A stretch of DNA of 52,728 bases, from positions 1 through 52,728 of the forward strand of contig CANPYI010000008.1 in assembly GCA_947588355.1 (NCBI GenBank), in the 5' to 3' direction. The notes beneath the pieces are model-generated. The model worked only from the letters and a program-made list of their open reading frames with translations. It ran no database searches and was not told where the DNA came from. Of the stretch, positions 18,785 to 43,358 are shown in pieces; position 1 is the stretch's first letter, and every line of letters begins with the position of its first letter. The stretch comes from an uncultured Clostridia bacterium. GTDB lineage: Bacteria; Bacillota; Clostridia; Christensenellales; UBA1242. A program made the translations under genes and the position numbers.

Positions 18785-18814
18785 TTGACAATGCAACAGT
18801 TTTTGCCTTATAAT
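18785..18814 (+). promoter_or_regulatory. Promoter placing the start codon at +1 (leaderless)
   Basis: A perfect TTGACA at 18785-18790, an 18-base spacer and a perfect TATAAT at 18809-18814. Six bases later is the ATG at 18821, where transcription would be expected to begin. No Shine-Dalgarno sequence fits between. Confidence 0.8.
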
Positions 18815-18820
18815 TGCCCT

Positions 18821-19561
18821 ATGAAAAGAAAAAAATTAAACACAAACACCGAAAAGTGTAATTATCTCAACATTACAAACCGAAAATTAGGAAAACTTTA
18901 CAAGTACAGCGGTTATGATTTTTTGCCAAGCGACTTTGACATAAATCCCGAAAAAATAAAAGAGCGTTTGTATTTGAATGAAATGCAAGTTTCAAATATT
19001 TTTCCATCGTTTATTTCGGAAGAAAAAAAATATATGAAAAAATTCTTCAAAAATTCTTTGAAAAATATCAAAAAAATGCAAAAAAAAGATTTTTCAGATA
19101 TTTTTTCGCACGATTTTACGCAGAAACTTGAAATTTATTTGGATATGCGAAAAGAACTGACAAAAATTCTTCTGAAAGATTTTGGAAGTCAGTCTTTTGA
19201 CGAAGTTGCTATTTTTCAAGAGATACATAATTTGAATCCTGTTTTTGGCGAACTTTTGGAAGAAATGTATCAGCCAAAACTTGACGAAGATATGTTTGAA
19301 GATTTGGAAAACAAATACAACACTCTGTATCTTGAGAAAATCCAAAAACTTGAAAAGAAACAAACAAAGCGCAGAAAAAGACAAAAAACTGCCGAAACGG
19401 AACTTCAAAATGTCGAATCTTTGGACAGAAAAGTTCAAAAAATCGCAACTATAGCAAAAAAGGAAGAAAAAACAAAACAATCTATCCAAAAAATTGAGCA
19501 TATGAAAGAGGTCAAAACTGTAAAGGCACAAAACAAAAAAACTAGCAAGGAGAAGTCATGA
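18821..19561 (+). CDS. Hypothetical coiled-coil protein, 246 aa
   Basis: No family is recognised. The protein is very rich in Lys and Glu; roughly residues 155-246 (for example YLEKIQKLEKKQTKRRKRQK) look like a long charged coiled coil, and no membrane segment is seen. The ATG at 18821 is chosen because the upstream TTG at 18785 lies on the -35 box itself. The mRNA is predicted to be leaderless. The last four bases overlap the start of the ABC-F gene (ATGA at 19558-19561), so the two genes are one transcript and probably translationally coupled, which suggests, without proving, a ribosome-related role. Confidence 0.75.
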   Translation: MKRKKLNTNTEKCNYLNITNRKLGKLYKYSGYDFLPSDFDINPEKIKERLYLNEMQVSNIFPSFISEEKKYMKKFFKNSLKNIKKMQKKDFSDIFSHDFTQKLEIYLDMRKELTKILLKDFGSQSFDEVAIFQEIHNLNPVFGELLEEMYQPKLDEDMFEDLENKYNTLYLEKIQKLEKKQTKRRKRQKTAETELQNVESLDRKVQKIATIAKKEEKTKQSIQKIEHMKEVKTVKAQNKKTSKEKS

Positions 19562-21138
19562 TTCAAGCACTGAACGTGTCGCTGGCATTTGGCGGTCGAA
19601 AACTTTATAAAGATGTAAATTTGAAATTCACCAAAGGCAACTGTTACGGCATTATTGGTGCAAATGGCGCTGGAAAATCCACTTTTTTGAAAATTTTGAC
19701 GGGTGAAATTGAGCCAAACACCGGCGAAATTGTCATAACCCCAGGTGAAAGGATGTCTGTTTTGGAGCAAAATCAAAACAAATATGACAATGAAACTGTT
19801 TTGGACACTGTACTTCTTGGTCACAAGCGACTAATGGAAATTCAAAAGGAAAAAGACTTGTTGTATGCCAAGCCTGATTTTTCTGACGAAGACGGCATAA
19901 GAGCAGGAGAACTTGAAACAGAATTTGCCGAACTTGGCGGCTGGGAAGCAGACGGCGAGGCAAAATCACTTTTGCAAAATATGGGCGTTCCGGAAAGTTG
20001 CTTTTACGACCTTATGTCCACACTTGACGGCAAAGTGAAGGTGAAAGTTTTGTTGGCACAAGCCTTGTTTGGAAATCCAGATATTCTTATTCTTGATGAG
20101 CCAACAAACAACTTGGATTTCAAGACAATCAGATGGTTGGAAAACTTTTTATTGGATTTTGAAAACATAGTCATCATTGTTTCGCACAATCGACATTTTT
20201 TAAACAAAGTTTGCACTCATATTTGCGACGTTGACTTTGGCGAGATAAACATGTATCTTGGCAACTATGATTTTTGGTACGAAACAAGTCAACTTTTGGC
20301 ACGTCAAAGAAAAGACCAAAACAAAAAAACAGAAGAAAGGGCAAAAGAACTTAAGGATTTTATTGCACGATTCTCGGCAAACGCGTCAAAATCAAAACAA
20401 GCAACAAGCCGCAAGAAAGAGTTGGAAAAACTTACTATTGACGACTTTAAGCCTTCTTCACGCAAATATCCATATGTTGATTTTAAGTATGAACAAGAAA
20501 TCGGCAAGGAAATTTTGAAAGTTGAAGGTTTGTCCAAAAAAGGAATGTTCAAAAATTTGTCGTTCACTGTTGAACACGGCCAAAAAATCGTTTTTTTGTC
20601 GTCAAACTCGTTGGTTTTGACCACACTTTTCAATATTTTGGCAGGCAAAGAACAGCCTGACAGTGGCACAATACACTGGGGAAAAACAATCAAAGCGTCA
20701 TACTTGCCGCAAGACAATCGAGAATATTTTGACAACTGCCATCTGTCAATTGTTGACTGGCTCAGGCAGTTTTCCAAAGACAAAACAGAAAGTTTTGTGC
20801 GTGGTTGGCTGGGCAGAATGCTTTTTTCGGGTGAAGAAAGTTTGAAAGAGGTCAATGTGCTTTCCGGAGGAGAAAAAGTGCGTTGCATGTTGGCAAAACT
20901 TATGCTTGAAAGCGGAAACTTTTTGATTTTGGACGAGCCAACAAATCATCTTGACCTTGAAAGCATAACTTCGCTAAACAAAGGCATGACAAACTTTAAA
21001 GGACCTATGCTTTTTGCCACCGGCGACCAAGAAATTATTGAAACAGTGGCAAACAGAATTATTGATATAGTTGACGAAAACACAATTATTGACAAACAGA
21101 TGAGTTATGAAGAGTACATGGAAAAATTCAAGTCATAA
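19558..21138 (+). CDS. ABC-F ATPase of the YkpA/YbiT type
   Basis: ABC-F proteins carry two ATPase domains on one chain without membrane segments; many bind the ribosomal E site and modulate translation or antibiotic resistance. The 526-residue protein has an intact first P-loop (GANGAGKST, about residue 36), a first signature degraded to TLDGKVKVKV, Walker B ILILDEPTNNLD, a basic linker (FSANASKSKQATSRKK), a second P-loop without the lysine (SSNSLVLTT), an intact second signature LSGGEKVR and Walker B FLILDEPTNHLD. The switch histidine is present in domain 1 (VSHNRHF) but replaced by TGD in domain 2. Thus only one composite ATP site looks complete. The linker and overall pattern match YkpA/YbiT relatives. 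GGAG precedes the ATG, which overlaps the upstream stop. Confidence 0.93.
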   Translation: MIQALNVSLAFGGRKLYKDVNLKFTKGNCYGIIGANGAGKSTFLKILTGEIEPNTGEIVITPGERMSVLEQNQNKYDNETVLDTVLLGHKRLMEIQKEKDLLYAKPDFSDEDGIRAGELETEFAELGGWEADGEAKSLLQNMGVPESCFYDLMSTLDGKVKVKVLLAQALFGNPDILILDEPTNNLDFKTIRWLENFLLDFENIVIIVSHNRHFLNKVCTHICDVDFGEINMYLGNYDFWYETSQLLARQRKDQNKKTEERAKELKDFIARFSANASKSKQATSRKKELEKLTIDDFKPSSRKYPYVDFKYEQEIGKEILKVEGLSKKGMFKNLSFTVEHGQKIVFLSSNSLVLTTLFNILAGKEQPDSGTIHWGKTIKASYLPQDNREYFDNCHLSIVDWLRQFSKDKTESFVRGWLGRMLFSGEESLKEVNVLSGGEKVRCMLAKLMLESGNFLILDEPTNHLDLESITSLNKGMTNFKGPMLFATGDQEIIETVANRIIDIVDENTIIDKQMSYEEYMEKFKS

Positions 21139-21140
21139 AC

Positions 21141-21175
21141 AAAAATCCACGGCGAAAACCGTGGATTTTTTATTT
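21141..21175 (+). terminator. Bidirectional terminator
   Basis: AAAAATCCACGG (21141-21152) pairs with CCGTGGATTTTT (21159-21170), with A and T tracts on both sides. It ends the ABC-F transcript and can also end the converging minus-strand gene, whose stop codon (21172-21170) lies within it. Confidence 0.85.
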
Positions 21176-21622
21176 TTCTCTTGTAGGATTTTTTGATGAC
21201 TTTTGTACTTTGTAATTTTTTATATTCTCGCCACCTTTTGCTATGTCAAAAGAAACCTTGCCTTGTATTTCTCCAAAAGTTGTAAAGTTTCCTTTTACAA
21301 AATTGCCTTGCTCGTCTGTTTGCATGGTCAATATTGTTTTTGGATAGGCAATTTTGATTCCGTCATATACTCTGAGATTTTCCAAAGTGTAACCTTGTGG
21401 AGTTTTTTCAAGTTTCAAAATCTCCGAAACCATCTTTATGTTTTTTCTTCCAACAGCAGGACCGTTGACATCTCTTGTCATTCTCAAACAATTGCCATTG
21501 CAAAAAACTCGTGTGGGTTGAAAAAATTCCACAGTCTTTGCAAACGACTGAATCTCCATGACATCGCTTTGCATCATCAAATCTTTGATTTTGTTTAATG
21601 TATCCTTCATTTTGTTTACCAT
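21170..21622 (-). CDS. Hypothetical protein, 150 aa
   Basis: I do not recognise a family. The protein begins MVNKMKDTLNKIKDLMMQ, has a cysteine pair in VFCNGNCLRM and ends in a basic tail; no signal peptide or membrane segment is visible. An ATG further upstream in the same frame is rejected because AAGGTGG sits about 6 bases before the ATG at 21622 and the promoter -10 box lies just upstream. The stop codon lies inside the shared terminator with the ABC-F gene. Confidence 0.7.
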   Translation of the reverse strand: MVNKMKDTLNKIKDLMMQSDVMEIQSFAKTVEFFQPTRVFCNGNCLRMTRDVNGPAVGRKNIKMVSEILKLEKTPQGYTLENLRVYDGIKIAYPKTILTMQTDEQGNFVKGNFTTFGEIQGKVSFDIAKGGENIKNYKVQKSSKNPTREK

Positions 21623-21650
21623 AGTAACCACCTTTTGTACTTGAGTTTTC

Positions 21651-21679
21651 ATTATAATATATTCAAAACAATTTTGCAA
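21651..21679 (-). promoter_or_regulatory. Promoter of the 150-aa hypothetical gene
   Basis: On the minus strand TTGCAA (21679-21674), a 17-base spacer and TATAAT (21656-21651), with a leader of about 22 bases that holds the ribosome binding site. Confidence 0.65.
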
Positions 21680-21717
21680 GACCAAAAGCATAAAAAAATA
21701 AAATTTTTGTTGTTTTG

Positions 21718-21746
21718 TTGACTTTTTTTTAGATTTACTATACTAT
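21718..21746 (+). promoter_or_regulatory. Promoter of the glyS T-box leader
   Basis: TTGACT at 21718-21723, a 17-base spacer and TACTAT at 21741-21746. Expected start near 21753, just before the basal stem of the T-box. Confidence 0.6.
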
Positions 21747-21756
21747 ATAGCATAGG

Positions 21757-21891
21757 TTGTGACGGAATTGGCAACTCCCGAGCCTGACGCTTGTCGGCGT
21801 AAAGACATAATGAAGGTGAGTTTTCACAAAATAGGGTGGAACAGCGGTTTGAAAGGTCGCCCCTATGCAAAAGATGCATGGGGCTTTTTTA
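21757..21891 (+). promoter_or_regulatory. T-box riboswitch (glycine) upstream of glyS
   Basis: A T-box senses uncharged tRNA and permits read-through of a terminator. The T-box sequence AGGGTGGAACAGCGG at 21833-21847 is close to consensus, and its TGGA would pair with the UCCA end expected of tRNA-Gly. The terminator is GCCCCTATGCA (21859-21869) against TGCATGGGGC (21875-21884) followed by a T run. Stem I appears to be closed by TTGTGA (21757-21762) and TCACAA (21824-21829), with a candidate GGU specifier at 21815-21817 preceded by GAA. The stem I region is only about 73 bases, shorter than usual, with a small apical hairpin at 21782-21798. The specifier assignment is inference. Confidence 0.88.
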
Positions 21892-21933
21892 TGTCCCGCA
21901 CTCTGCAGAATATGTTTTGAAAGGAGAAAAAGA

Positions 21934-23313
21934 ATGGAAGAAAAACAGAAAGTGACAATGGACAAGATTGTAAATTTGTGCAAAAACAGAGGATTTATCT
22001 TTCCCGGAAGTGATATTTATGGTGGAATGGGCAACACGTGGGACTACGGTCCAATTGGTGTGGAACTTAAAAACAACATAAAGCGCGCTTGGTGGAAGAG
22101 GTTTGTTCAGGAAAGTCCAAACACTTACGGTGTGGACGCGGCAATTTTGATGAATCCAAAGGTGTGGGACGCAAGTGGTCACACGCAAAATTTTTCCGAT
22201 CCAAAAATGGATTGCAAGTCATGTAAGGAGCGTTTTCGTGCCGACAATTTGATTGAAGAGCATTCTCATGGCAATGTCTCTGCCGAGGGCATGACAAACG
22301 AACAAATGGAAAAATATATTGCGGACAACAAAGTCAAATGCCCGCATTGTGGCAACTTTAATTGGACGCCAATACGTCAGTTTAAACTTATGTTTGAAAC
22401 TTCGCGCGGCACTGTTGACGGCGAAAAGGACATAGTTTATCTTCGTCCAGAAACTTGTCAAGGCGAATATGTAAACTTTCTTAATGTGCAACGTTCTATG
22501 CGTGCAAAAGTTCCGTTTGCTATCGCTCAAATTGGCAAAAGTTTTCGAAATGAAATCACTCCTGGAAATTTTATTTTCCGCACAATAGAATTTGAGCAGA
22601 TGGAACTTCAGATGTTTTGCCGTGAAGAAAATTCCTTTGAAGCATATGAAAATTACAAAAAACAAGCACAGCAGTTTTTGCTTGACCTTAATATCTGCCC
22701 CGAGCATCTGAAATTTCATGACCATGAAAAATTGGCATTTTATGCAAAAGCGGCTTGCGACATTTTCTATCTTTTTCCTATGGGTTGGAACGAGTTGAAC
22801 GGCATACATCACCGCTCTACGCACGACCTTTCCCGCCATCAAGAATTTTCTGGCAAAAGTATGGCATATCTTGACCCCGTGACCAACGAAAAGTTTATTC
22901 CAACTGTCGTGGAATATTCCATCGGTGCCGATCGTTTGGTGCTTGCCATTCTGTGTGAAGCATATGACGAAGAAACCTTGGAAGGTGGAGACACTCGTGT
23001 TGTTATGCACTTTCACCCTGCCCTTGCCCCTTTTAAAGTGGCTATTCTTCCGCTTCAAAAAAATCTCAGCGAAAAAGCACGTGAAGTTTATGCTTTGCTT
23101 TCAAAACAGTTTATGTGCGAATATGACGAGGCAGGCTCTATTGGAAAGCGCTATCGCCGAGAAGACGAGATTGGAACGCCTTACTGTGTGACGGTTGATT
23201 TTGACTCGCTTGAAGATGACACAGTCACCGTTCGAGACCGTGACAGCATGAAACAAGAGCGTGTAAAAATTGATGATTTGACTGATTATATCGCCAAACG
23301 AATAACATTTTAA
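21934..23313 (+). CDS. glyS: Glycyl-tRNA synthetase, single-chain dimeric type
   Basis: This class II enzyme charges tRNA-Gly with glycine using ATP in the cytoplasm. At 459 residues it is the alpha2 type also found in archaea, eukaryotes and many low-GC Gram-positives, not the alpha2-beta2 GlyQ/GlyS type. Visible marks are GFIFPGSDIYGG at the N terminus, two CxxC pairs (CKSC and CPHC) that may bind zinc, the motif 2 block FRNEITPGNFIFRTIEFEQM, and motif 3 YSIGADRLVLAIL; the C-terminal anticodon-binding domain follows. The ATG at 21934 has AAGGAG seven bases upstream; an in-frame ATG at 21865 would lie inside the T-box terminator. Expression should be controlled by the T-box leader. Confidence 0.97.
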   Translation: MEEKQKVTMDKIVNLCKNRGFIFPGSDIYGGMGNTWDYGPIGVELKNNIKRAWWKRFVQESPNTYGVDAAILMNPKVWDASGHTQNFSDPKMDCKSCKERFRADNLIEEHSHGNVSAEGMTNEQMEKYIADNKVKCPHCGNFNWTPIRQFKLMFETSRGTVDGEKDIVYLRPETCQGEYVNFLNVQRSMRAKVPFAIAQIGKSFRNEITPGNFIFRTIEFEQMELQMFCREENSFEAYENYKKQAQQFLLDLNICPEHLKFHDHEKLAFYAKAACDIFYLFPMGWNELNGIHHRSTHDLSRHQEFSGKSMAYLDPVTNEKFIPTVVEYSIGADRLVLAILCEAYDEETLEGGDTRVVMHFHPALAPFKVAILPLQKNLSEKAREVYALLSKQFMCEYDEAGSIGKRYRREDEIGTPYCVTVDFDSLEDDTVTVRDRDSMKQERVKIDDLTDYIAKRITF

Positions 23314-23320
23314 ACATAAA

Positions 23321-23350
23321 AAAACACCCTCAAACGAGAGTGTTTTTTTT
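23321..23350 (+). terminator. Terminator of glyS, probably bidirectional
   Basis: AAAACACCCTC (23321-23331) pairs with GAGAGTGTTTT (23336-23346), with one C/A mismatch, four-base loop and T run to 23350. A tract on the other side would serve the converging small gene. Confidence 0.8.
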
Positions 23351-23358
23351 CTAGACAA

Positions 23359-23592
23359 TTAGTCAATCCAGATAACTTTGCCAATAACAAGAAGTGTGAT
23401 GATATCAACAACCCAAATAATTGCTGGGCAGAAGAACAACATCAAAATTCCAAGCACGATGCCAAGAACATTTTTCTTGTCGATAGAACGGCAAAGACGA
23501 TAAATTGCCCAGCAAATGTCAAGAACTGGCAAAGCCAAAATAATCTTAACGATAAGTGGGAAATTGTCAAATGTCTTAATGATATCCTTCAT
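23359..23592 (-). CDS. Small membrane protein, 77 aa
   Basis: The product has two hydrophobic segments (about residues 13-32 and 41-73, the latter long enough to make one or two helices) joined by a short charged stretch RLCRSIDKKN. I do not recognise a family; it resembles small integral membrane proteins of the PLDc_N or Pmp3 size class, but without their diagnostic motifs. AAGGAG stands eight bases before the ATG, and a good promoter lies upstream, so it is very likely expressed as its own unit. Confidence 0.75.
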   Translation of the reverse strand: MKDIIKTFDNFPLIVKIILALPVLDICWAIYRLCRSIDKKNVLGIVLGILMLFFCPAIIWVVDIITLLVIGKVIWID

Positions 23593-23638
23593 CTCTAATT
23601 CTCCTTTTAAATAAATTTGTAATCTTTGTTACACTTTA

Positions 23639-23667
23639 ATTTTAGATGTTAAAATCAAAAATGTCAA
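23639..23667 (-). promoter_or_regulatory. Promoter of the 77-aa membrane protein gene
   Basis: On the minus strand a perfect TTGACA (23667-23662), a 17-base spacer and TAAAAT (23644-23639), with a leader of about 40 bases. Confidence 0.65.
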
Positions 23668-23795
23668 CAATTTCAACAAAATTATATATGTTTTTTAAAA
23701 TTTTTCTATGCATAAAGTAAAATTCGTTTGTTGTCACAATTTGTCTTATGAATTTAAATAAAAAAATGACACAAACTTTACCTGAGGAGGAAAAT

Positions 23796-23972
23796 ATGGA
23801 AGAAGAACTCAACAGTGGTGTACGTTGCAATGTCAAAACTTGCGTCTACAATGAAAAAGGCTGCAACTGCAACAAACTTGTGATAGATGTTTCGCAAGGA
23901 GACGGACAGCCTATGCCAAACGGCGAAAAAGCACACTTTTGCAAAAGTTTTATAGAAAAAGACCTTGACTAA
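23796..23972 (+). CDS. DUF1540 small cysteine-rich protein
   Basis: This 58-residue protein carries a DUF1540-like pattern: VRCNVKTCVYNEKGCNCNKL followed by IDV, with a final cysteine in HFCKSF. Such proteins are common in low-GC Gram-positives; their function is unknown and metal binding is only suspected from the cysteines. The ATG at 23796 is chosen because GAGGAGG lies about 7 bases upstream; an in-frame ATG at 23748 has no ribosome binding site. The stop codon falls in the loop of the terminator hairpin. Confidence 0.85.
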   Translation: MEEELNSGVRCNVKTCVYNEKGCNCNKLVIDVSQGDGQPMPNGEKAHFCKSFIEKDLD

Positions 23973-23983
23973 AGGTCTTTTTT
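23957..23983 (+). terminator. Bidirectional terminator overlapping two stop codons
   Basis: AAAAGACCTT (23957-23966) pairs with AAGGTCTTTT (23972-23981). The loop contains the start of the TAA of the DUF1540 gene, and the T run holds the stop of the converging peptidase gene (23984-23982). Confidence 0.8.
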
Positions 23984-24707
23984 AGTGAAACAAATGTTCT
24001 TTTCGTGTCAGCATCGTCCAAGAAAGCATTGTTCTTATCAATGTTGCCCAGTAAGTCAATCGGGCGGAATTTAATAGATCTTGGCACAATTTCAATTCAT
24101 CTTCCGACAAGATTTGCCCCAGAAATTCCAAAGCAAAATCAGAAGCCTGGCGCTCAATTTTTATTTCCTTCCACTTTAAGAATATTGCAAACAAAAATAT
24201 CACGAAACTTGCAACAAGCCCCACAGCCCCTGCAACAAGAAAATAAATCTGAGACAACACTTGAAATGCCCAAAGTGCAAGCAGCACAGCACCAACAATA
24301 AAAAGTGGCATAAAAAACAGTCCACATATTCGTCCCGTCTTTCGCAAACGCCAAAATTTTCGTAAAATATCGGTTGTATCTTGCCTTGCATGACCAAGTT
24401 CGTGCGAAACTATTGCAAGCGATGCCAAACTGTTGGAATTCATAGTTTTGTCTGATAGTGCCACAATCCCGCCGCCATAATGATCATCATATTCTTGACA
24501 TCTTGCCACTTGAAGTCTACCCGAAAAATATGTCTTGTTGACCGCATTCACATAGTCCAAAGTCCTTGCACCATATGAATTTGGAATTTGGTCAATTTTT
24601 TTTAATTTTTCGTTGTAATTTTCAAAGGAAAAACTTGCCACTGCAAGCGCAAGGCAAAGCAAAATTCCAAGTCCAACAACAACTCCAACAATAATCCATG
24701 TCCACAT
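23982..24707 (-). CDS. YugP-like membrane zinc metallopeptidase
   Basis: The 241-residue protein matches the neutral zinc metallopeptidase family that includes Bacillus YugP. The catalytic HExxH motif is HELGH in AIVSHELGHARQD, and a likely third ligand is the glutamate in EIKIERQASDFAL. An N-terminal membrane segment spans about residues 4-24, and two more hydrophobic segments lie between the HExxH motif and the third ligand, as in relatives. GGGIVALSD precedes the active site. The start ATG has no Shine-Dalgarno sequence; a -10 box ends exactly six bases upstream, so the mRNA is predicted to be leaderless. The substrate is unknown. Confidence 0.88.
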   Translation of the reverse strand: MWTWIIVGVVVGLGILLCLALAVASFSFENYNEKLKKIDQIPNSYGARTLDYVNAVNKTYFSGRLQVARCQEYDDHYGGGIVALSDKTMNSNSLASLAIVSHELGHARQDTTDILRKFWRLRKTGRICGLFFMPLFIVGAVLLALWAFQVLSQIYFLVAGAVGLVASFVIFLFAIFLKWKEIKIERQASDFALEFLGQILSEDELKLCQDLLNSARLTYWATLIRTMLSWTMLTRKEHLFH

Positions 24708-24713
24708 ATTTAC

Positions 24714-24743
24714 ATTTTACATCTTTTTTCAGTTTTCTTGCAA
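24714..24743 (-). promoter_or_regulatory. Leaderless promoter of the YugP-like gene
   Basis: On the minus strand TTGCAA (24743-24738), an 18-base spacer, TAAAAT (24719-24714), six bases GTAAAT and then the ATG at 24707. Confidence 0.7.
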
Positions 24744-24754
24744 CTTTTTTTACT

Positions 24755-31511: not shown

Positions 31512-32603
31512 CTATTTGCCAAAATTTGTAATTTTTCCGTCTTTGATTGTAAAGATTTTGCCATCTATTTGACGTTCGTCAGTGCAAGTGATAAATGTTT
31601 GCGTGCGACCCACAAATCGAAGCAATTTTTCCTGTCTTTCGGTGTCAAGTTCTGAAAAGACGTCGTCCAAAAGCAAAATAGGATATTCTCCACTTTTTTC
31701 TTTCATACTTTCAAGTTCTGCCAATTTTAACGAAAGTGCCACCGTGCGTTGTTGACCTTGAGATCCAAAGTTTTTCACTTCCACATCATTCAAAAAGATG
31801 TCTATATCATCTCGATGTGTGCCAATTGACGTGTAGCCAAGTTTAAAGTCTTTTTCCAAATTTTTCTTTAGAAGTTTGGACATATTTTCTTCAAAATTTT
31901 CGTCTAACGAAACTCCACAACCGCATTTGTATATCATGTTGAGATTTTCCTTTCCTCCACTTATGAAATGATGTGCTTTTTGTGCGTAAGGCAAAATTTC
32001 TTCCACAAACTTTTTCCTTTCAAACGCAATTGTTTTTGCGGAAGTGACAAGTGCCCTGTCCCAAATATCCACTGTTTCCTTGACGGAGTCAAGAGTGCTG
32101 CAAATTTTGAAGAGTTTGTTGCGATTTGCCAAAATTTTTTCGTAGCGCGTCAGTTGATAAAAATATCTTTTATTTTGTTGACTTATGTCAATATCCATAA
32201 ATTTTCTTCTCTCGTCCGGACTTTCTTTGACAAGTTTAAGTTCTTGTGGCGAAAAGAACACAACATTAACTTGTCCAATAAGGTCACCTATTTTTCTGAT
32301 TGGAATATCGTCAATTTTTACAACCTTTTTCTTGGAAATGTCAAAAATCACTTCAACTTTCACATCAGTGTACAACCTTTCTGCAACAAATTTTATGCTT
32401 GCTTTTTGTGTGTTCCAACGAATTAGGTCCTTGTCCTTACAATTTTTGAAACTTTTGCCAATGCAGCAATAAAAGATACTTTCCAAAAGGTTTGTTTTTC
32501 CTTGTGCATTCTTGCCAATAAAAACATTCACTTTGTCATCAAATTGAACCTTTTGAAAATCATAATTTCTAAAGTTTTTGACTTCCAACTCTTTTACTTT
32601 CAC
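31512..32603 (-). CDS. recF: DNA replication and repair protein RecF
   Basis: RecF is an SMC-like ATPase that loads RecA at gapped DNA with RecO and RecR. The 363-residue product begins with the typical LEVKNFRNY, has the Walker A motif GKNAQGKTN, the block SPQELKLVKESPDERRKFMD, the signature-like FGSQGQQRTVALSLKLAE and the Walker B PILLLDDVFSELD. The usual position is downstream of dnaN on the same strand; here it is upstream of dnaA and divergent from it. The start is taken as GTG at 32603: a TTGTAA-17-TATGAT promoter ends exactly six bases upstream and no ribosome binding site is present, so the mRNA is predicted to be leaderless. Confidence 0.95.
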   Translation of the reverse strand: MKVKELEVKNFRNYDFQKVQFDDKVNVFIGKNAQGKTNLLESIFYCCIGKSFKNCKDKDLIRWNTQKASIKFVAERLYTDVKVEVIFDISKKKVVKIDDIPIRKIGDLIGQVNVVFFSPQELKLVKESPDERRKFMDIDISQQNKRYFYQLTRYEKILANRNKLFKICSTLDSVKETVDIWDRALVTSAKTIAFERKKFVEEILPYAQKAHHFISGGKENLNMIYKCGCGVSLDENFEENMSKLLKKNLEKDFKLGYTSIGTHRDDIDIFLNDVEVKNFGSQGQQRTVALSLKLAELESMKEKSGEYPILLLDDVFSELDTERQEKLLRFVGRTQTFITCTDERQIDGKIFTIKDGKITNFGK

Positions 32604-32609
32604 TTCTTT

Positions 32610-32638
32610 ATCATAGCACAAAAATTAAAGATTTACAA
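32610..32638 (-). promoter_or_regulatory. Leaderless promoter of recF
   Basis: On the minus strand TTGTAA (32638-32633), a 17-base spacer, TATGAT (32615-32610) preceded by TGC (extended -10), six bases AAAGAA and the GTG at 32603. Confidence 0.7.
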
Positions 32639-34055: not shown

Positions 34056-34062
34056 AAATCAC

Positions 34063-35916: not shown

Positions 35917-36011
35917 TAGTGTTTTTAAAAAAATTTAGTCAAAATGTGGCAATAGTCAACATAATAATTTAAGACTTGTGGCAAATTAACAAAAAATCAC
36001 GACGTTTGTGG

Positions 36012-36040: not shown

Positions 36041-36095
36041 AAAGCATAATCTTTTTGCAGTAGGAAATTTTTGCAAAAAAAACAAGGAGAAAAAT

Positions 36096-36230: not shown

Positions 36231-36238
36231 GGTTTTTT

Positions 36239-36568
36239 ATGGATCACAGACTTAAAAAAAACAGTCAATTCAATTTTATTTACAAAAAGGGTGAAAGAGT
36301 TTACACAGATAATTTCACTCTTTTTGCAGTTAAGAGCAAATTTGAGATATACAAAATAGGTTTTTCTGTCAGTAAAAAACTTGGCAAGGCAAACAAAAGA
36401 AATCTTTTGAAGCGAAGACTTCGAGAGATAGTAAAAAATTTGGACGTTCCAAATCACTTCAATTATGTTTTGATGGCAAAAGAAAATTCAACAAGCCTTG
36501 AGTTTGACAGCCTTAAAAAAGAAGTTTACAAAATTTTTGACAGGTTTAAGGCAAAGGTTTTGAAATGA
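36239..36568 (+). CDS. rnpA: Ribonuclease P protein component
   Basis: The protein subunit assists the RNase P RNA in removing 5' leaders from precursor tRNAs. The 109-residue product shows family marks: LKKNSQFNFIYKKG at the start, FSVSKKLGKANKRNLLKRRL with the RNR-type basic motif, and a C-terminal helix. A TAAGG, formed partly by the rpmH stop, precedes the ATG. The last four bases overlap the start of yidD (ATGA), so translation is probably coupled. Confidence 0.96.
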   Translation: MDHRLKKNSQFNFIYKKGERVYTDNFTLFAVKSKFEIYKIGFSVSKKLGKANKRNLLKRRLREIVKNLDVPNHFNYVLMAKENSTSLEFDSLKKEVYKIFDRFKAKVLK

Positions 36569-36852
36569 AACAACAGACAACCTCAACAAAACATAACAGC
36601 AATTTTATAAAAAAAATTTTTTTGTTGCCGGTTTATTTTTTTAAGTACTGTATCTCGCCGATATTACCTCACGTTTGTCTGTTTGTGCCAACTTGCTCCA
36701 ACTACATGATTTTGGCTGTCAAAGAGTTTGGAATTTTTAAGGGATTCTTTTTGGGCACAAAAAGATTATTTAGGTGTGTTCCGTGGCAGAAAAAACGTGG
36801 CTATGACCCTGTACCTATAAACATAAAAGGAGAAAATATATGGATTTTGTAA
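36565..36852 (+). CDS. yidD: Membrane protein insertion efficiency factor YidD
   Basis: YidD is a small peripheral membrane protein that aids YidC-dependent insertion. The 95 residues carry the family core FKYCISPILP, then PTCSNYMILAVKEFG, GTKRLFRCVPW and GYDPVP. The three cysteines of the conserved block are mostly kept (VCLFVPTCSNY and FRCVPW). The start overlaps rnpA by four bases and its end overlaps yidC by 13 bases, which indicates tight coupling in the operon. Confidence 0.95.
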   Translation: MKQQTTSTKHNSNFIKKIFLLPVYFFKYCISPILPHVCLFVPTCSNYMILAVKEFGIFKGFFLGTKRLFRCVPWQKKRGYDPVPINIKGENIWIL

Positions 36853-38153
36853 GCACAAATCTTGTTGTTTTGAAAGCACCAACTGGCATGTGGCAATCAA
36901 TATTAAATGCTTTTCGTGGTGCATTAGGGACATATATTTTGGCTGTCATATTGATTGCAATTATCGTAAGAGTTTTGTTTGCACTTGTGGATATTGTAAA
37001 CAAAAAGGTTTCCATGAAAAATGCCGAAATAAGCAACAAAATGAAGCCGGAACTTGACGCAATAAAAGCAAAGTATGGCAATGACCCGGCAATGATGCAG
37101 CAAAAAACAAGCGAAATCTACAAAAAATACCAATTTAATATGATGAGCAGTTGTTTGCCAATGTTGGTGGCCTTGGTGTTGCAGTTTACGGTGTTTTTGA
37201 CGCTTTGGAATGCCCTTCAGTCTGTTTCAAATTTCAATATTGTTGAAAAATACGAAAATGTTAAAAATGTGTATACCAATGTTTTGACCTTAAACGAAAA
37301 AGAAATTGTTTTGGACTCAATAACTGAAAATTTTTCAGATGGTGATCAAATTTCAGTTGAAATCGTTGAAGGTGAGCAAAAAACATTTAATGTGTATGTT
37401 GTAAATTACGAAACAGAAAAAAATATCAAGGTTGCCGAAAACTTGCCTTTCGTGGAAGATTTTGCAAATGCTGATGCACAACTCACATCAAACGAAGTTG
37501 TTTATGGATTGATTGAAAAATATGTTTCACACCCAGAAAATTCCGAAGAATCAGAGCCTTCCGAAATCGACTTTGTGCGTGAAGCAATTCAGTCCGCCGC
37601 TGAAAGAGAGGCCGCCGAAAGATATCTTGAAACACAAGAGGGTTTTTTGTGGATAAAAAACATCTATAAAGCAGAAAGTCCAACAAGTCCACTGTTTACT
37701 GAATCAGAAATTAAAACCTATCTTAAAGAGTTTTATTCAGACGCCGAAAAGATAGTTGAAGAGCAAAATGATTTTGAAGGCAAAATCTTCAACAATGTTG
37801 TTGCCGGAATTGACACGCAGTCGCTTGGAGTGAACGGATATTACATTTTGACTATTATTGCTGTTGTGACCTCGGTTTTGTCTATGTGGCTTTCAAACTT
37901 TTTGATGAGAAGCAAAAATCAACCAAAACAAAAACAGTCCTGGGCAATGTATGTGATTATGCCAATCATTATAGGAATTTTCACCTTTATGTACACAAGT
38001 TTGTTTGCAATTTACTTGATTGTCGGTCAACTTATGATGTTACTGATCACCCCTCTTACAACTTTGATTGTAAAAAAATGGAATGAAAAGGACATAAAAA
38101 AGAACAAAGAAAAAACCGAAGTTGTTGTTGACTATCGAAGAAAAGATATTTAA
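36840..38153 (+). CDS. yidC: Membrane insertase YidC/OxaA with a large external insert
   Basis: YidC inserts proteins into the cytoplasmic membrane with or without SecYEG. The 437-residue protein has the conserved arginine in the first core helix (AIIVRVLFALV, about residue 44), the cytoplasmic hairpin (MKPELDAIKAKYGNDPAMMQ), the helix MLVALVLQFTVFLTLWNAL (about 107-126), and C-terminal helices GYYILTIIAVVTSVLS and MPIIIGIFTFMYTSLF. Between about residues 128 and 329 lies an acidic insert of roughly 200 residues in what is a short outer loop in Gram-positive YidC proteins, which are usually about 250-290 residues. No lipobox is seen. AAGGAG precedes the ATG inside yidD. Confidence 0.93.
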   Translation: MDFVSTNLVVLKAPTGMWQSILNAFRGALGTYILAVILIAIIVRVLFALVDIVNKKVSMKNAEISNKMKPELDAIKAKYGNDPAMMQQKTSEIYKKYQFNMMSSCLPMLVALVLQFTVFLTLWNALQSVSNFNIVEKYENVKNVYTNVLTLNEKEIVLDSITENFSDGDQISVEIVEGEQKTFNVYVVNYETEKNIKVAENLPFVEDFANADAQLTSNEVVYGLIEKYVSHPENSEESEPSEIDFVREAIQSAAEREAAERYLETQEGFLWIKNIYKAESPTSPLFTESEIKTYLKEFYSDAEKIVEEQNDFEGKIFNNVVAGIDTQSLGVNGYYILTIIAVVTSVLSMWLSNFLMRSKNQPKQKQSWAMYVIMPIIIGIFTFMYTSLFAIYLIVGQLMMLLITPLTTLIVKKWNEKDIKKNKEKTEVVVDYRRKDI

Positions 38154-38162
38154 AAATAAAAG

Positions 38163-38191
38163 ACCTTATATATGTTATATAAGGTTTTTTT
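38163..38191 (+). terminator. Terminator of the rpmH-yidC operon
   Basis: ACCTTATATA (38163-38172) pairs with TATATAAGGT (38176-38185) around TGT, followed by a T run. The A tract on the left may let it serve the converging amidase gene too. Confidence 0.85.
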
Positions 38192-38210
38192 ATGCAAATT
38201 AAATCGGAAA

Positions 38211-39236
38211 TTAGTTTGTAAGGGCATTCCAAGTATTTGGACCAACAATGCCATCAACAGCCAAACCATTTTGTTGTTGGAAACTTCGAACGGCGTTTTC
38301 GGTGTTTGTTCCAAAAATTCCATCAACACCTCCAACAGGCACAAGATTGCTTTCCAAAAGACTTTGCATAAGTTTTACATATGCACCCCTGTTTCCTTGA
38401 CGCAAGGTTGGATAAGGTGCAAGTGTAAGCAAAGTTTTCCAAGTGTTTTGTCCGACGATGCCATCAACATTTAAACCGTTTTCTTGTTGAAAATTTCGCA
38501 CAGCATTTTCGGTGTTTGCTCCAAAAATACCGTCAACTGTCAGGTTTGCACCATATTGATTTAAGATAAATTGCAACAAAAAGATAAAATTGTTGTCAGA
38601 GCCTCTACGCAAAGTAGGATAATTTGACAAATTTCCGCGCGGAATATATTGCACGCCCAAAAAGTCACAAACACCCTGACACGCCTCTTCGCCAACTTCG
38701 GTTTGGAAAAGTGGATTTATCATTTTGCGGGCTTCGTTTAAGTTGGTCATAAACCCGGCTTCAATAAGCGCCGAAGGACAATTTACGCTTGAAAGCACAC
38801 CGACGTCCAAATTTTTTACTCCTCTTCCGTTTTGTGCTGTGCCCTGCAAAAGACGATTGTATATATCTTCTGCCAAAGTGCGACTTTGAGAAGCACGAGG
38901 ATTTGTTTGTGAATAAAAAACCTCCACGCCAGAAGTGTTGTTGAATTCCGTTCCAAAAGCATTGTAAGCAAAAGTGACCAAAGCGGTCAAATTTTGGCGA
39001 TTTATTCTGACCACCCTTTGCGTTATGGAAACATCTTGGTCTTCTGGCTTGACATCATAAACCGAAAAACCTTGCCTTAAGCATGCTTCCAAAAATTTGT
39101 TTTTTGCCGCACGATTGAACTCGTTTTCATAGATTGCACGATTTAGTCCTGGCACAATCGGTGTTCTTTTTCCGGGCGTTGGAGGATTGACTCCGTGTTC
39201 GTCATTTCCGCCAATATAATAATCAGAATTTGGCAT
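38211..39236 (-). CDS. Amidase_3-like protein with two peptidoglycan-binding domains
   Basis: N-acetylmuramoyl-L-alanine amidases of this family cut the bond between muramic acid and the stem peptide. Residues 1 to about 185 follow the family: a histidine in GGNDEHGV (H14), a glutamate in YENEFNR, INRQNLTALVTFAYNAFG where the usual SIHAN block stands, GVEVFYS, and the catalytic glutamate in ALIEAGFMTN. The third zinc ligand, the histidine of the SIHAN block, is alanine here (about residue 90), so activity is doubtful. Two tandem peptidoglycan-binding type 1 domains follow (YPTLRRGS... and YPTLRQGN...). No signal peptide is present, so export would need lysis or another route. AAAGGAG precedes the ATG. 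Confidence 0.85.
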   Translation of the reverse strand: MPNSDYYIGGNDEHGVNPPTPGKRTPIVPGLNRAIYENEFNRAAKNKFLEACLRQGFSVYDVKPEDQDVSITQRVVRINRQNLTALVTFAYNAFGTEFNNTSGVEVFYSQTNPRASQSRTLAEDIYNRLLQGTAQNGRGVKNLDVGVLSSVNCPSALIEAGFMTNLNEARKMINPLFQTEVGEEACQGVCDFLGVQYIPRGNLSNYPTLRRGSDNNFIFLLQFILNQYGANLTVDGIFGANTENAVRNFQQENGLNVDGIVGQNTWKTLLTLAPYPTLRQGNRGAYVKLMQSLLESNLVPVGGVDGIFGTNTENAVRSFQQQNGLAVDGIVGPNTWNALTN

Positions 39237-39268
39237 AAAAATCTCCTTTAAAAAATAGTTTCAAACTT

Positions 39269-39297
39269 TAAATATGTTATTTTCACGAAAAATGCAA
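39269..39297 (-). promoter_or_regulatory. Promoter of the amidase-like gene
   Basis: On the minus strand TTGCAT (39297-39292), a 17-base spacer and TATTTA (39274-39269). It is divergent from the promoter at 39318. Confidence 0.55.
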
Positions 39298-39317
39298 CAC
39301 AAAAAACAAAAAGGGAC

Positions 39318-39346
39318 TTGAAAAATGACAAAATTTGTGATATCAT
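39318..39346 (+). promoter_or_regulatory. Leaderless promoter of the 188-aa gene
   Basis: TTGAAA (39318-39323), a 17-base spacer, TATCAT (39341-39346), six bases GACAAT, then ATG at 39353. No Shine-Dalgarno sequence. Confidence 0.7.
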
Positions 39347-39352
39347 GACAAT

Positions 39353-39919
39353 ATGAAAGGAAAATTTTTTAAAAATCCAGCCTTTGTGGACATGGAATTT
39401 TACAAAATCATACGCAAAGCCTTGCGCAAAGGCTATGCTTTGAAGTTTGATGAAAACTTTTTTGATTTGTTGGCAAAAACAAATGCAAGATTTGCAAAAA
39501 TTTTGAAAGAAAACTCAACAAGTGGTCTTTGTTATGGCTTTGCTTTGTTGCTTGCAACAAATATTCCAAATTGCACCCTTGTGCATGGCGTGCTTGAAAA
39601 ACTTCCTTGCATAAGCGAAAACGAAGGGTCTTATTATGAATTTGAGCATGCATGGGTGGAAAAAGGCAATATGGTTTTTGACACTTCTGCAAAATGTGTT
39701 TTCGACAAAGAAAAATATTATGAAATGTTTGGTGCAAAAACTAAACAAACATATACAAAAAGCCAACTCTCAGACGAGGCAACCTTAAAAAGTCTGTGTT
39801 CACATGTTCTGTGGCTAAGGCCGGAGATGTCGGAGATAATTTATTCCTTTGAGCCGTTTTCAAATTTTGATAAAGAAAAACTTTCAAAGTCAAACAACAA
39901 TTTACAAATGCAAATTTGA
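39353..39919 (+). CDS. Putative papain/transglutaminase-fold protein, 188 aa
   Basis: I do not recognise a named family. The layout suggests a cysteine-histidine-aspartate site: TSGLCYGFALLLATN (cysteine at about residue 60 on a helix), then FEHAWVEKGNMVFDTSAK with histidine and a following aspartate at typical spacing for transglutaminase-like or papain-like folds. There is no signal peptide or membrane segment, so the protein should be cytoplasmic. The gene lacks a ribosome binding site and appears leaderless. Catalytic activity is inference from the motif pattern only. Confidence 0.65.
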   Translation: MKGKFFKNPAFVDMEFYKIIRKALRKGYALKFDENFFDLLAKTNARFAKILKENSTSGLCYGFALLLATNIPNCTLVHGVLEKLPCISENEGSYYEFEHAWVEKGNMVFDTSAKCVFDKEKYYEMFGAKTKQTYTKSQLSDEATLKSLCSHVLWLRPEMSEIIYSFEPFSNFDKEKLSKSNNNLQMQI

Positions 39920-39928
39920 CTTTTGTAT

Positions 39929-39957
39929 TTGACTTTTTGTTTTGATTGTTGTAATAT
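39929..39957 (+). promoter_or_regulatory. Promoter of the LtaS-like gene
   Basis: TTGACT (39929-39934), a 17-base spacer and TAATAT (39952-39957). The leader contains AGGGGAAA before the ATG at 39976. Confidence 0.6.
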
Positions 39958-39975
39958 CTTTTCATAGGGGAAACT

Positions 39976-41958
39976 ATGAAAAAAGAAAAAAGTAAAGAGA
40001 TAGCATTAAATCAAATAATATTTCCTTTGCTGTTTATTTTTCTCTCACTTCTGTTGGAAATAATAAATTTTATAGTAATTGACCTGAAGATGAGCGGCAC
40101 CGTGACACAGATATTTCCAAGAGAATGGCTTTTTGATGTTGGAGCGGTTTTGATAATCGCTGGACTTATATTTATTGTGAAAAATCAAAAAGTATCTTTG
40201 GCGCTTTTTATTTTTTTTATCTTTGCTCAAGCATGTTTAAACACCCTAAACGCCAACATTTTTGAAGTGTTTGGCGACATGTTTACAGCGGACTATTTTA
40301 TACTTGGCGATGAGGCTTTTGCGGCAATTCGTTTTGAATTTATTGATTTTGCCGTGATTGCAATGTATCTTTCAATTTTTGCAATGACAGTCACCTTTGC
40401 AGTTTTGTTGTACAAACGTAACAAAAAAACAATCAGGTTGAAAAAACTTTCTTATTTGTCTTTTGCTTTGGTTTTGCTCCTTTCAATGGAAAGTGTTGGA
40501 GTGACGCTTTATTCCTGTGAGATTGCAAACATCACGCAAGCAAAGTCAGAGACAATAGAAAACAACTTAAATTATCTTTACGAAAGTTTTCAATTCAAGA
40601 CGGAGGCTTATCAAAATTTTGGATATTACGGCTTTTATACAAAAAATTTTCTGGACGCAATTTTTGGAAAAACAAAGCCTAGCACAAAAGACAAGGAAGA
40701 ATTGATAAATTACATAAATGAGGGAAAAACACAATTTCCTGACCTTGACGGCAGTTTAGCAAACGACAACCTTATCGTAATTTTGTGTGAAAGTCATGAA
40801 TGGTTTGCTTATGACGAAATAAACACTCCGTTTGTTTGGAAACTTATGACACAAGATGCTGCCGCATTCACCGGTTTCTACGGTCACAACAAAACAAATA
40901 TCAGCGAAGGAATAGTTTTGTCGGGCAACATGCCTCAGCAAACAACTTTGGAAAGTTTAGTCAGCGGAAAGGAAGGATTTGACTACTCCTACACCCTGCC
41001 AAAACTTTTTAAGCAAGCACATTCAAACGAAAAAGTTGTTGCAAACTATTTTCACACATGGAAAAGATATTTTTATTCCCGAGATGACACTTACTTGCAA
41101 GATGGCATAGGGTTTGACAATTTTTACTCTCACGACAATTTTTCAAAAGCGGACTCAGAATTTTTTGGCGATTGGATAAGAGATAGCGAATTTGTGGAGG
41201 AGTTTGCAGATGAATTTGTTCCTGACAAAGACAAAGCGGACAAATTTATGTCGTTTTTTGCTACGATGACAACACACGGCCCTTACACGTATGAAAATCC
41301 AAGATTTGCAGATTTGTATCAGAAATATGATGAAAATTTGGAAGAATATAAAACATGGCTGAAAAACTTTACTGGCGAAGTGACATTTCCAGAAAATGAA
41401 GAAGATGCAGCACAGTTGCGTAGATACAAAGTTGGTGCAATGGAATTTGATAGGACAGTTGCAAAGATTTTTGAAATTTTGGAAGAAAAAGACAGACTTG
41501 AGGACACCACGATTGTACTTTTTGCCGATCACAACAGTTACTATGACAATATGACCTACAAATTGAAAGGCGTTGACAAAACAGACTACTCCAATATTAA
41601 AGTTCACAACATTCCTCTTTTGATATACAATTCAAAGATAACGCCGGGAGTATACACGCAGTTTTGCAACACATATGATATCTTTCCAACAATATGTGAG
41701 TTGCATGGTCTTACATACAACAAAAATCTTACTCAAGGATACAACATTTTCTCTGAGGATATAAAGAATTCCTTCTTTGCTTCACATCTTGGCGGAATGT
41801 TCAATGAAAATTATTTCAGTAAAAACATTTCTGATGTTGTTGACTTGAAGGAAAATCTTTCGCAACAAGATTTGGAAAACTTTAAGCAGTGTGCTGAAAG
41901 ATTTTATCAAAGACAACGAAAACTTGAACAAATTTACAGTGAAAATTTGGCAAAATAA
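39976..41958 (+). CDS. Lipoteichoic acid synthase-like sulfatase-fold membrane enzyme
   Basis: LtaS-type enzymes polymerise or transfer glycerol phosphate from phosphatidylglycerol on the outer face of the membrane. The 660-residue protein has about five N-terminal membrane segments (within residues 10-185), a linker and an external alkaline-phosphatase-fold domain. Marks are NLIVILCESHEWF (metal-binding glutamate), the presumed threonine nucleophile in HNKTNISEG, MTTHGPYTY, and FADHNSYYDN where relatives have a DHG-type metal site. AGGGG stands before the ATG. Which polymer it makes cannot be told; related phosphoglycerol transferases share this layout. It is flanked by its own promoter and terminator. 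Confidence 0.88.
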   Translation: MKKEKSKEIALNQIIFPLLFIFLSLLLEIINFIVIDLKMSGTVTQIFPREWLFDVGAVLIIAGLIFIVKNQKVSLALFIFFIFAQACLNTLNANIFEVFGDMFTADYFILGDEAFAAIRFEFIDFAVIAMYLSIFAMTVTFAVLLYKRNKKTIRLKKLSYLSFALVLLLSMESVGVTLYSCEIANITQAKSETIENNLNYLYESFQFKTEAYQNFGYYGFYTKNFLDAIFGKTKPSTKDKEELINYINEGKTQFPDLDGSLANDNLIVILCESHEWFAYDEINTPFVWKLMTQDAAAFTGFYGHNKTNISEGIVLSGNMPQQTTLESLVSGKEGFDYSYTLPKLFKQAHSNEKVVANYFHTWKRYFYSRDDTYLQDGIGFDNFYSHDNFSKADSEFFGDWIRDSEFVEEFADEFVPDKDKADKFMSFFATMTTHGPYTYENPRFADLYQKYDENLEEYKTWLKNFTGEVTFPENEEDAAQLRRYKVGAMEFDRTVAKIFEILEEKDRLEDTTIVLFADHNSYYDNMTYKLKGVDKTDYSNIKVHNIPLLIYNSKITPGVYTQFCNTYDIFPTICELHGLTYNKNLTQGYNIFSEDIKNSFFASHLGGMFNENYFSKNISDVVDLKENLSQQDLENFKQCAERFYQRQRKLEQIYSENLAK

Positions 41959-41961
41959 ATG

Positions 41962-41983
41962 CGGACAAAATTGTCCGTTTTTT
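41962..41983 (+). terminator. Terminator of the LtaS-like gene
   Basis: CGGACAA (41962-41968) pairs with TTGTCCG (41971-41977), followed by a T run to 41983. The mnmE -35 box begins six bases later. Confidence 0.75.
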
Positions 41984-41988
41984 ATTTG

Positions 41989-42017
41989 TTGCATTTTTTT
42001 TGTGAATTTGCTAAAAT
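41989..42017 (+). promoter_or_regulatory. Leaderless promoter of mnmE
   Basis: TTGCAT (41989-41994), a 17-base spacer, TAAAAT (42012-42017), six bases ATCCGC and the ATG at 42024. No Shine-Dalgarno sequence. Confidence 0.7.
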
Positions 42018-42023
42018 ATCCGC

Positions 42024-43358
42024 ATGGAAAAATGCATAGCCTCTGTTGCAACTCCGCTTGGTCGAGGTGCAATTTCAATAATAAGGTTGAGTGGCAAGGA
42101 CAGTTTGAATATTGCCCTTAAGGTTTTTTCGTCAAAAAACATAAAAAAACAAGTTTTGCCGCGATTTATGTATTATGGAAATCTGAAACTTGGCAACGAT
42201 TTGTATGAGCAATGTCTTATGGTATTTTTCAAAGCACCGTTTTCTTACACCGGAGAAGATGTGGTGGAGTTTCAAGTGCACGGCGGTGTGCTTTTGGCAC
42301 AAAAGGTTTTGGAAGAGGTTCTTGACGCTGGAGCAATTTTGGCAGAGCCTGGAGAATTTTCAAAACGGGCATTTTTAAATGGCAAAATCACACTGGACAA
42401 AGCGGAAGCAATAATAGGCGAAATAGATGCAGAAAGCGAGGCGGAACTTTCGTCAAGCCTGCAAGTGACCAACGGAAAACTTTCAAACAAAATTTTGCAA
42501 GCACAAGAAAAACTCAAGTTGTTGTTGGCAGAACTTGAAGTTGGAATGGATTATCCTGACGAGACTGAAGAAACAAAACTTAAGGAAAACATTTTTGAAA
42601 GCCTTGACAATGTTTTGAGCGAAATTCAACAAATTTTGTCCAATTCAAACAGTGCAAAATATTTGAAAAACGGCATCAATGTTGCACTTGTTGGAAAAAC
42701 AAATGTTGGGAAAAGCAGTATTATGAACGCGCTTTTGGGTGAAGATCGGGCCATAGTGACCGATGTGCAAGGCACAACAAGAGACCAAATAACCGAAACT
42801 TTTTTGTATGATGGCATCAAGATAAATCTGATTGACACTGCTGGGATACGCAAAACAGATGATAGGGTTGAAAATCTTGGAATTCAAAAAAGCAAATCCG
42901 CTCTTGCCTGTGCAGACGTGGTGTTGTTTGTGCTTGACGGAAGCGAAAAACTGAGTGAAGATGACAAAAAAATAAAAAATATGGTTGGACAAAACACGAT
43001 TTTTGTGATAAACAAAACAGACAAAAAAAGAGCGTTACAACACTTTGAAAACGAGATCGAAATTTCCGCCTTAAAAAACACTAATATTGAAAATTTGAAA
43101 AAGGCAATCAAAGAAATGGTGATTTCAAATGAGATTGATTTCAACAAACTTGTCATCACCAACGAAAGACAATATTCAATTTTAAAAGATGCGGAATCAA
43201 TTTTGCAAAACATACAAAAAGATGAGCAAATTCTCTCTTTGGATATTTTGGCGATGCAAATAAAAAAAGTTTGGCAAACCTTGGGAAAAATTACAGGAAA
43301 CACGGAAAACGAGGATATAATTGACCTTATTTTCAGCAAGTTTTGTTTGGGGAAATAG
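42024..43358 (+). CDS. mnmE: tRNA modification GTPase MnmE (TrmE)
   Basis: With MnmG this GTPase makes the 5-carboxymethylaminomethyl-type modification at wobble uridine 34. The 444-residue protein has the N-terminal folate-binding domain (IASVATPLGRGAISIIRLSG), a helical domain interrupted by the G domain (G1 GKTNVGKSS, G2 region GTTRD, G3 DTAGIR, G4 NKTDKK), and the C-terminal family motif FCLGK with the reactive cysteine. The start has no ribosome binding site and lies six bases after a -10 box. mnmG begins eight bases after the stop. Confidence 0.97.
   Translation: MEKCIASVATPLGRGAISIIRLSGKDSLNIALKVFSSKNIKKQVLPRFMYYGNLKLGNDLYEQCLMVFFKAPFSYTGEDVVEFQVHGGVLLAQKVLEEVLDAGAILAEPGEFSKRAFLNGKITLDKAEAIIGEIDAESEAELSSSLQVTNGKLSNKILQAQEKLKLLLAELEVGMDYPDETEETKLKENIFESLDNVLSEIQQILSNSNSAKYLKNGINVALVGKTNVGKSSIMNALLGEDRAIVTDVQGTTRDQITETFLYDGIKINLIDTAGIRKTDDRVENLGIQKSKSALACADVVLFVLDGSEKLSEDDKKIKNMVGQNTIFVINKTDKKRALQHFENEIEISALKNTNIENLKKAIKEMVISNEIDFNKLVITNERQYSILKDAESILQNIQKDEQILSLDILAMQIKKVWQTLGKITGNTENEDIIDLIFSKFCLGK

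Follow-up and report, generated by a model that had tools for sequence, protein, structure and literature searches.

Start codons set close to sigma-A-type promoters suggest leaderless mRNAs in an uncultured, small-genome Clostridia lineage

In bacteria, leaderless genes are recognisable by a TANNNT motif that lies some 12 bases ahead of the start codon. An earlier survey lists this signal in 56 of 209 Firmicutes genomes (mean 4.2%), in the form TAtAAT where GC is low, and places the predicted leaderless genes of the Firmicutes mainly in Lactobacillales and Mycoplasma (Zheng et al. 2011, PMC3160421; all comparisons made here draw on parts of the cited papers). In streptococci, 8.6-9% of mRNAs are leaderless according to differential RNA sequencing (dRNA-seq), and 81% of the S. 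pyogenes cases are shared with S. agalactiae (PMC6431027), while Capp-Switch studies of clostridia assign 2-4% of start sites or transcripts to this category (PMC5171806, PMC9045289). In Deinococcus-Thermus, where the share is about 30% of open reading frames (ORFs), mutation tests tie leaderless expression to a -10 motif located a few bases ahead of the ORF (PMC12340547). Here we describe a comparable arrangement in a stretch of 52,728 nucleotides from an uncultured gut Clostridia bacterium (hereafter the window), which is contig C8 (CANPYI010000008.1) of a 928,187-base (0.93 Mb) metagenome-assembled genome (MAG) in 15 contigs with a completeness of 94.98% (GCA_947588355.1). Five genes of the window, among them recF and mnmE, have a -10 hexamer exactly six bases before the start codon, and sigma-A promoters of this kind probably give leaderless mRNAs in some 5-9% of the genes of this genome (probability of roughly 0.88).

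The genes described here match the TANNNT genes of the earlier survey in motif, distance to the start codon and absence of a Shine-Dalgarno (SD) sequence, but they belong to a Clostridia lineage, whereas that survey points to Lactobacillales and Mycoplasma (PMC3160421). The streptococci have a similar share of leaderless mRNAs and also share most cases between the two species compared, although they form another branch of the Bacillota and were mapped experimentally, while the present class is known from sequence alone (PMC6431027). The Capp-Switch clostridia carry the label Clostridia, as do the relatives of the present genome; however, the leaderless genes of C. phytofermentans are described in the available parts of these sources as usually keeping a ribosome-binding site and another upstream start site, in contrast to a class that lacks SD sequences and has a geometry conserved between species (PMC5171806, PMC9045289). 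The share found here is apparently above that of other clostridia, with methods that differ and percentages that are not strictly comparable. As in Deinococcus-Thermus, where RecF of D. radiodurans is among the displayed cases, the -10 element lies beside the ORF, but the share is smaller here and many of the promoters have a -35 element and TGn (PMC12340547). The initial annotation of the window regarded leaderless genes as unexpected in low-GC Gram-positives, a view not supported by the published values for streptococci and clostridia and by the predictions for Lactobacillales and Mycoplasma. The leaderless class is already known; what is new is its presence in this lineage, for which no leaderless genes were found in the literature searched, among the matches listed, and its gene-specific conservation.

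All five promoter-start fusions proposed in the initial annotation were found again by pattern, with the hexamers originally given, spacers of 17 or 18 bases and a six-base gap. On the forward strand, the first (18785..18823) consists of TTGACA (18785-18790), 18 bases, TATAAT (18809-18814) and six bases before the ATG at 18821 of a gene encoding 246 aa (18821-19561). The second, on the reverse strand (24705..24743), has TTGCAA (24743-24738), 18 bases and TAAAAT (24719-24714) ahead of the ATG at 24707, where a gene for a 241-aa putative zinc peptidase (PF04298) begins (24707-23982). Also on the reverse strand, recF (32603-31512) starts with GTG at 32603 behind TTGTAA (32638-32633), 17 bases and TATGAT (32615-32610), the whole element spanning 32601..32638. 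The remaining two lie on the forward strand with spacers of 17 bases: TTGAAA (39318-39323) and TATCAT (39341-39346) precede the ATG at 39353 (element 39318..39355) of a gene encoding 188 aa (39353-39919), and TTGCAT (41989-41994) and TAAAAT (42012-42017) precede the ATG at 42024 (element 41989..42026) of mnmE (42024-43358). Neither the 246-aa nor the 188-aa product has an NCBIfam or Pfam match at E 0.001. Within the window, the short pattern TANNATN6RTG alone is not enriched (17 matches compared to 12.65 expected, with 17 reached in 12 of 100 shuffles); adding TTG leaves three matches at spacer 17 (0.44 expected) and two at spacer 18 (0.42 expected), and these five matches, against a joint expectation of 0.86, are the five gene starts named above.

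Beyond the window, genes were sampled from 20 stretches of 20 kb, which together with the window cover 452,728 of the 928,187 bases (49%) and contain 359 genes called with a purpose-made coding-score caller blind to upstream sequence. A -10-like box was defined as TAnnnT with at least one further consensus match, the gap is the number of bases between the end of the box and the start codon, and a gene is considered a member of the leaderless class if it has such a box at gap 6 or gap 7. This class comprises 31 of the 359 genes, from which recF is excluded, the caller having started it at a TTG at 32621. More than half of the genes (202) are SD-led, and the 157 non-SD genes include 126 with neither an SD sequence nor a gap-6/7 box. 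A box at gap 6 is found in 22 of the 359 genes, more than in any of 300 dinucleotide shuffles of the upstream regions (mean 5.9, maximum 12) and well above the background of 3.1 per gap seen at gaps 12-45 among the 157 non-SD genes. Gap 7 occurs in nine of the 359 genes, also above the non-SD background (Poisson p 0.004). Once background is removed, the class would amount to about 19 (shuffle basis) to 25 (non-SD gap basis) of the 359 genes. Across the whole genome, TTG-spacer-TANNNT-6-ATG has 61+47 = 108 matches, compared to 21+15 = 36 for the reversed pattern. The genome-wide mode suggested in the initial annotation is borne out by these counts, and a scan for TANNNT, six bases and a start codon against shuffled upstream regions, which had been proposed as a check, gives a clear excess at six in the 359 genes. 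Of the six-base spacing as a rule, the peak stands, since gap 6 exceeds chance; its exclusiveness does not, as gap 7 is probably in use as well.

The boxes have the surroundings of sigma-A promoters (a TTGACA-like -35 element 16-18 bases before the -10, optionally with TGn), a layout found in the class above the level of shuffles. TGn precedes the -10 in 21 of the 31 class genes (shuffle mean 2.0, maximum 9), and a -35 with at least 4/6 consensus matches is likewise present in 21, chiefly at spacer 17 or 18 (shuffle mean 7.8, maximum 15); the -35 elements of the others are weaker, with 3/6 matches in nine genes and 2/6 in one. With a transcription-unit start defined by an upstream neighbour at least 40 bases away or on the opposite strand, the class accounts for 30 of 233 unit-start genes compared to one of 112 inner genes (p 7e-5), and 14 of the 359 genes, which have no neighbour in their stretch, were placed in neither group. 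The base before the ATG is a pyrimidine in all 22 gap-6 genes, compared to 113 of 202 SD genes (p 1e-5) and 73 of the 126 genes with neither signal (p 4e-5); it is C in 13 of the 22 but only 14 of the 202 SD genes (p 1.4e-8). Among pooled orthologues, which are mutually related, C or T precedes 81 of 87 gap-6 starts and 67 of 98 SD starts. Gap-7 genes are less uniform, with a pyrimidine in seven of nine. RNA polymerase favours a pyrimidine at -1 followed by a purine at +1, and because of this preference and the usual distance from the -10, the A of the ATG is likely to be +1 in the gap-6 genes. Leaderless and SD genes do not differ in the folding of their first 40 nucleotides (p 0.98), and they look alike in downstream base composition.

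The same geometry is conserved in related genomes. In 36 genomes of the genus, the pattern TGNTANAAT-6-ATG has 881 matches compared to 314 at a ten-base gap, with the larger number at gap 6 in 36 of 36 genomes, and its reversed form has 79 matches. The 24 genomes from other families of the order are mixed, some being enriched at gap 6 over gap 10 (32 vs 5, 24 vs 4, 19 vs 3) and others not (3 vs 14, 4 vs 12). Individual genes were followed at 114 unique mnmE loci of 130 given, at 50 of 50 loci each for recF, miaB and uvrB, and at 30 of 30 for leuS; the closest relatives among the named records of the MnmE comparison are gut MAGs, chiefly labelled uncultured Clostridia, with some further ones labelled Christensenella. 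An orthologue is considered close if the best aligned segment has at least 52% identity (70% for uvrB); this band admits two recF, seven uvrB and most miaB loci from the order level, and genus loci were therefore also counted separately, as 30 per gene (the gene of this genome plus its 29 top-scoring relatives, a part of the genus). For mnmE, a box at gap 6 or 7 is found in 41 of 46 close orthologues, compared to 3-8 of 46 at control gap pairs, and none of the 46 has an SD sequence. The number of bases between the -10 and the ATG is mostly constant, although the bases themselves differ. For recF, the box is present in 27 of 30 genus loci and in 27 of 32 close orthologues (3-6 of 32 at control gap pairs), again with variable spacer bases. 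The conservation of the spacing, a check proposed in the initial annotation, holds for recF and mnmE through most of the genus, as does the use of the leaderless geometry that was noted there for these conserved genes. Among the 68 distant mnmE orthologues, 22 have a box at the nearest start and 24 at any candidate start (7-11 at control pairs), and 29 have an SD sequence. The box is present in 13 of 30 genus loci for uvrB and likewise in 13 of 30 for miaB, while the SD-led control leuS has it in none of 30 loci and an SD sequence in 26 (mixed orthology, identities from 83 to 43%). Among orthologues, box and SD sequence seldom occur together: both are found in three, one or the other in 126 and 72, and neither in 63 (p 8e-23). 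This near exclusion was not used as evidence, since the two signals would fall on the same bases and the sequences share ancestry. As a separate observation, the MiaB of this genome (L001:3277-4401, 374 aa) covers only positions 1-373 of the 437-position model, lacking the C-terminal end, and miaB open frames are 375-455 aa long in the genus and 427-561 aa in other families of the order.

It is important to note that several observations weigh against a general reading of these genes as leaderless. The absence of an SD sequence noted in the initial annotation extends to all 31 class genes (0/31), but it is largely forced by the geometry because the -10 hexamer sits on the bases that an SD sequence would use. 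About 12 of the 31 class genes are expected from shuffles, gap 7 taken alone lies inside the shuffle range (nine observed; mean 5.8, maximum 13), and the starts were assigned by a crude purpose-made program, which failed to find that of recF. Conservation is also incomplete, with 11 of 30 uvrB and 13 of 30 miaB loci SD-led within the genus, so that these two genes appear from their upstream sequences to switch between the leaderless and the SD state from species to species. At the order level, the box is present in only four of 20 recF, five of 20 uvrB (SD in six) and four of 20 miaB loci (SD in seven), and the distant bands are near control size (recF 5/18 compared to 0-3, uvrB 2/13 compared to 0-2); outside the genus, mnmE alone is clearly above its controls. 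Finally, recF of this genome has an A rather than a pyrimidine before its GTG, and five of ten close gap-7 recF orthologues have a G before the start, a pattern suggesting that some transcripts of the gap-7 or recF type may carry one or two leader bases.

There are several potential alternative explanations. AT-rich intergenic DNA is full of TA-rich hexamers, and sites six bases from a start codon could have been picked out from among them, as the lack of enrichment of the short pattern in the window and the class members produced by shuffling would allow. Such a chance origin is refuted as a general account, and is extremely improbable, given a gap-6 count that beats 300 of 300 shuffles, the accompanying -35, TGn and pyrimidine before the ATG, and boxes held at gap 6 or 7 in close mnmE and recF orthologues far above their control gaps while the spacer bases vary, although individual sites could still be due to chance. 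A different possibility is that the promoters are real but that translation begins at an internal in-frame start with its own SD sequence, leaving short leaders and making the leaderless starts calling errors. A downstream in-frame start behind an SD-like GGAG or GAGG does exist in two of the 31 class genes, but this is a lower proportion than in SD genes (14 of 105), and both motifs fall in glycine-rich coding sequence (GGG and GGGG in protein letters). In addition, alignments of RecF and MnmE with their orthologues begin at query residues 1-6, and a later start is therefore hardly possible, which leaves internal initiation highly improbable for the class. Of the 126 genes with neither signal, 90 are among the 233 at transcription-unit starts; part of these 126 probably have miscalled starts, since 34 have a downstream in-frame start preceded by GGAG or GAGG. 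More serious, though still unlikely, is the possibility that transcription starts 1-5 bases before the start codon and yields very short leaders without SD sequences. Start sites of sigma-70 promoters scatter by one or two bases, gap 7 is used, and the G at -1 in half of the close gap-7 recF orthologues fits such leaders; however, the pyrimidine at -1 in every gap-6 gene points to the A of the ATG as +1.

A further explanation concerns which genes are leaderless. In addition to mnmE and recF, the class includes genes for MiaB, TadA, DusB, an RluA-like synthase, TlyA, Der, RsfS and Xer, as well as a DnaQ-like exonuclease, Ogg, ScpA, TatD, UvrB, MurG, FolD, Lgt and others, the names being taken from family matches of which some are under the curated cut-off. 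One class member (L018 14073, with a TTG start) is doubtful and was left out of the family scan, so that 30 of 31 were scanned. RNA-modification or DNA-maintenance proteins make up 12 of these 30 (for RNA modification MiaB, TadA, DusB, MnmE, RluA-like and TlyA; for DNA maintenance Xer, DnaQ-like, Ogg, ScpA, TatD and UvrB), compared to one (RNase HI) of 30 SD-led genes drawn at random from transcription-unit starts (p 0.001). The scan thresholds were E 1e-30 for the SD controls and 1e-3 for the leaderless set; all 12 maintenance proteins pass 1e-30, and among proteins matching at that level the contrast is 12 of 19 compared to one of 15 (p 0.001). Such a contrast would be expected if these genes were a co-regulated class, kept leaderless for a special initiation state (the IF2/IF3 ratio, 70S initiation or specialised ribosomes). 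However, the functional categories were defined after seeing the list and in one genome, and low versus high expression is a simpler explanation that accounts for the contrast equally well, because the SD set includes ribosomal proteins S12 and L13 and three tRNA ligases. The translation machinery gives no sign of such a state either: among bS21, IF3 and IF2, no loss that could explain the class was seen in 61 genomes (present in 60, 59 and 59, respectively; bS1 was not sought), and in the genus, with the present genome counted, all 37 genomes have bS21 and IF3 and 36 have IF2, the other misses all lying outside the genus. Among order-level relatives, higher leaderless usage goes with a lower score of the IF3 C-domain (rho -0.55, p 0.0075, n=22). 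This candidate link was dropped because L14, a protein not known to take part in start selection, correlates nearly as strongly (rho -0.51, p 0.016, n=22), and the correlation probably reflects relatedness; other comparison proteins give -0.32 for IF2 (n=23), -0.20 for S21 (n=23) and +0.24 for the MnmE score (n=22). Compared with the rest of the order, both the genus and several leaderless-rich families show lower IF3 C-domain scores (L201-L240), a pattern inseparable here from relatedness. A response of these genes to growth state or to the make-up of the ribosome, as suggested in the initial annotation and for which mechanisms of the IF2/IF3 and MazF type have been described, finds no support in these data, and a co-regulated class is improbable. 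According to a related idea, selection acts on the leaderless state gene by gene, and core low-abundance maintenance genes (tRNA/rRNA modification, DNA repair) of a reduced-genome Clostridia family have kept their start codons fused to promoters over deep time, as an expression class separate from SD-led translation genes and set by initiation-factor balance; this is likewise improbable.

The leaderless reading draws on the spacing peak, the promoter elements, the pyrimidine before the ATG, the position at transcription-unit starts and the conservation among orthologues. A sigma-A (sigma-70 type) promoter, often with an extended TGn -10, would set the transcription start at or within about one base of the A of the start codon. 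The resulting mRNA would have neither a 5' leader nor an SD site. The ribosome would then start at the 5'-terminal AUG, or rarely GUG; translation from a 5'-terminal codon is assumed here by analogy with other bacteria, in which it is established. Over evolutionary time, single genes could swap between leaderless and SD states, while mnmE and recF would have stayed leaderless in most of the genus and, in the case of mnmE, partly beyond it. Apart from these genes, a quarter of the window (5316-18581, reverse strand) is occupied by a single open reading frame of 4421 aa that has no Pfam match at E 0.001.

These findings would extend the range of bacteria with a mixture of leaderless and SD-led genes to an uncultured, small-genome clostridial lineage in which the SD system works, and two conserved genes, mnmE and recF, hold the leaderless geometry over many species. 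The arrangement is useful for calling gene starts in MAGs of this kind. In addition, miaB and uvrB provide natural pairs of orthologues that appear leaderless in some species and SD-led in others, and such pairs could be used to test what makes genes change from one state to the other.

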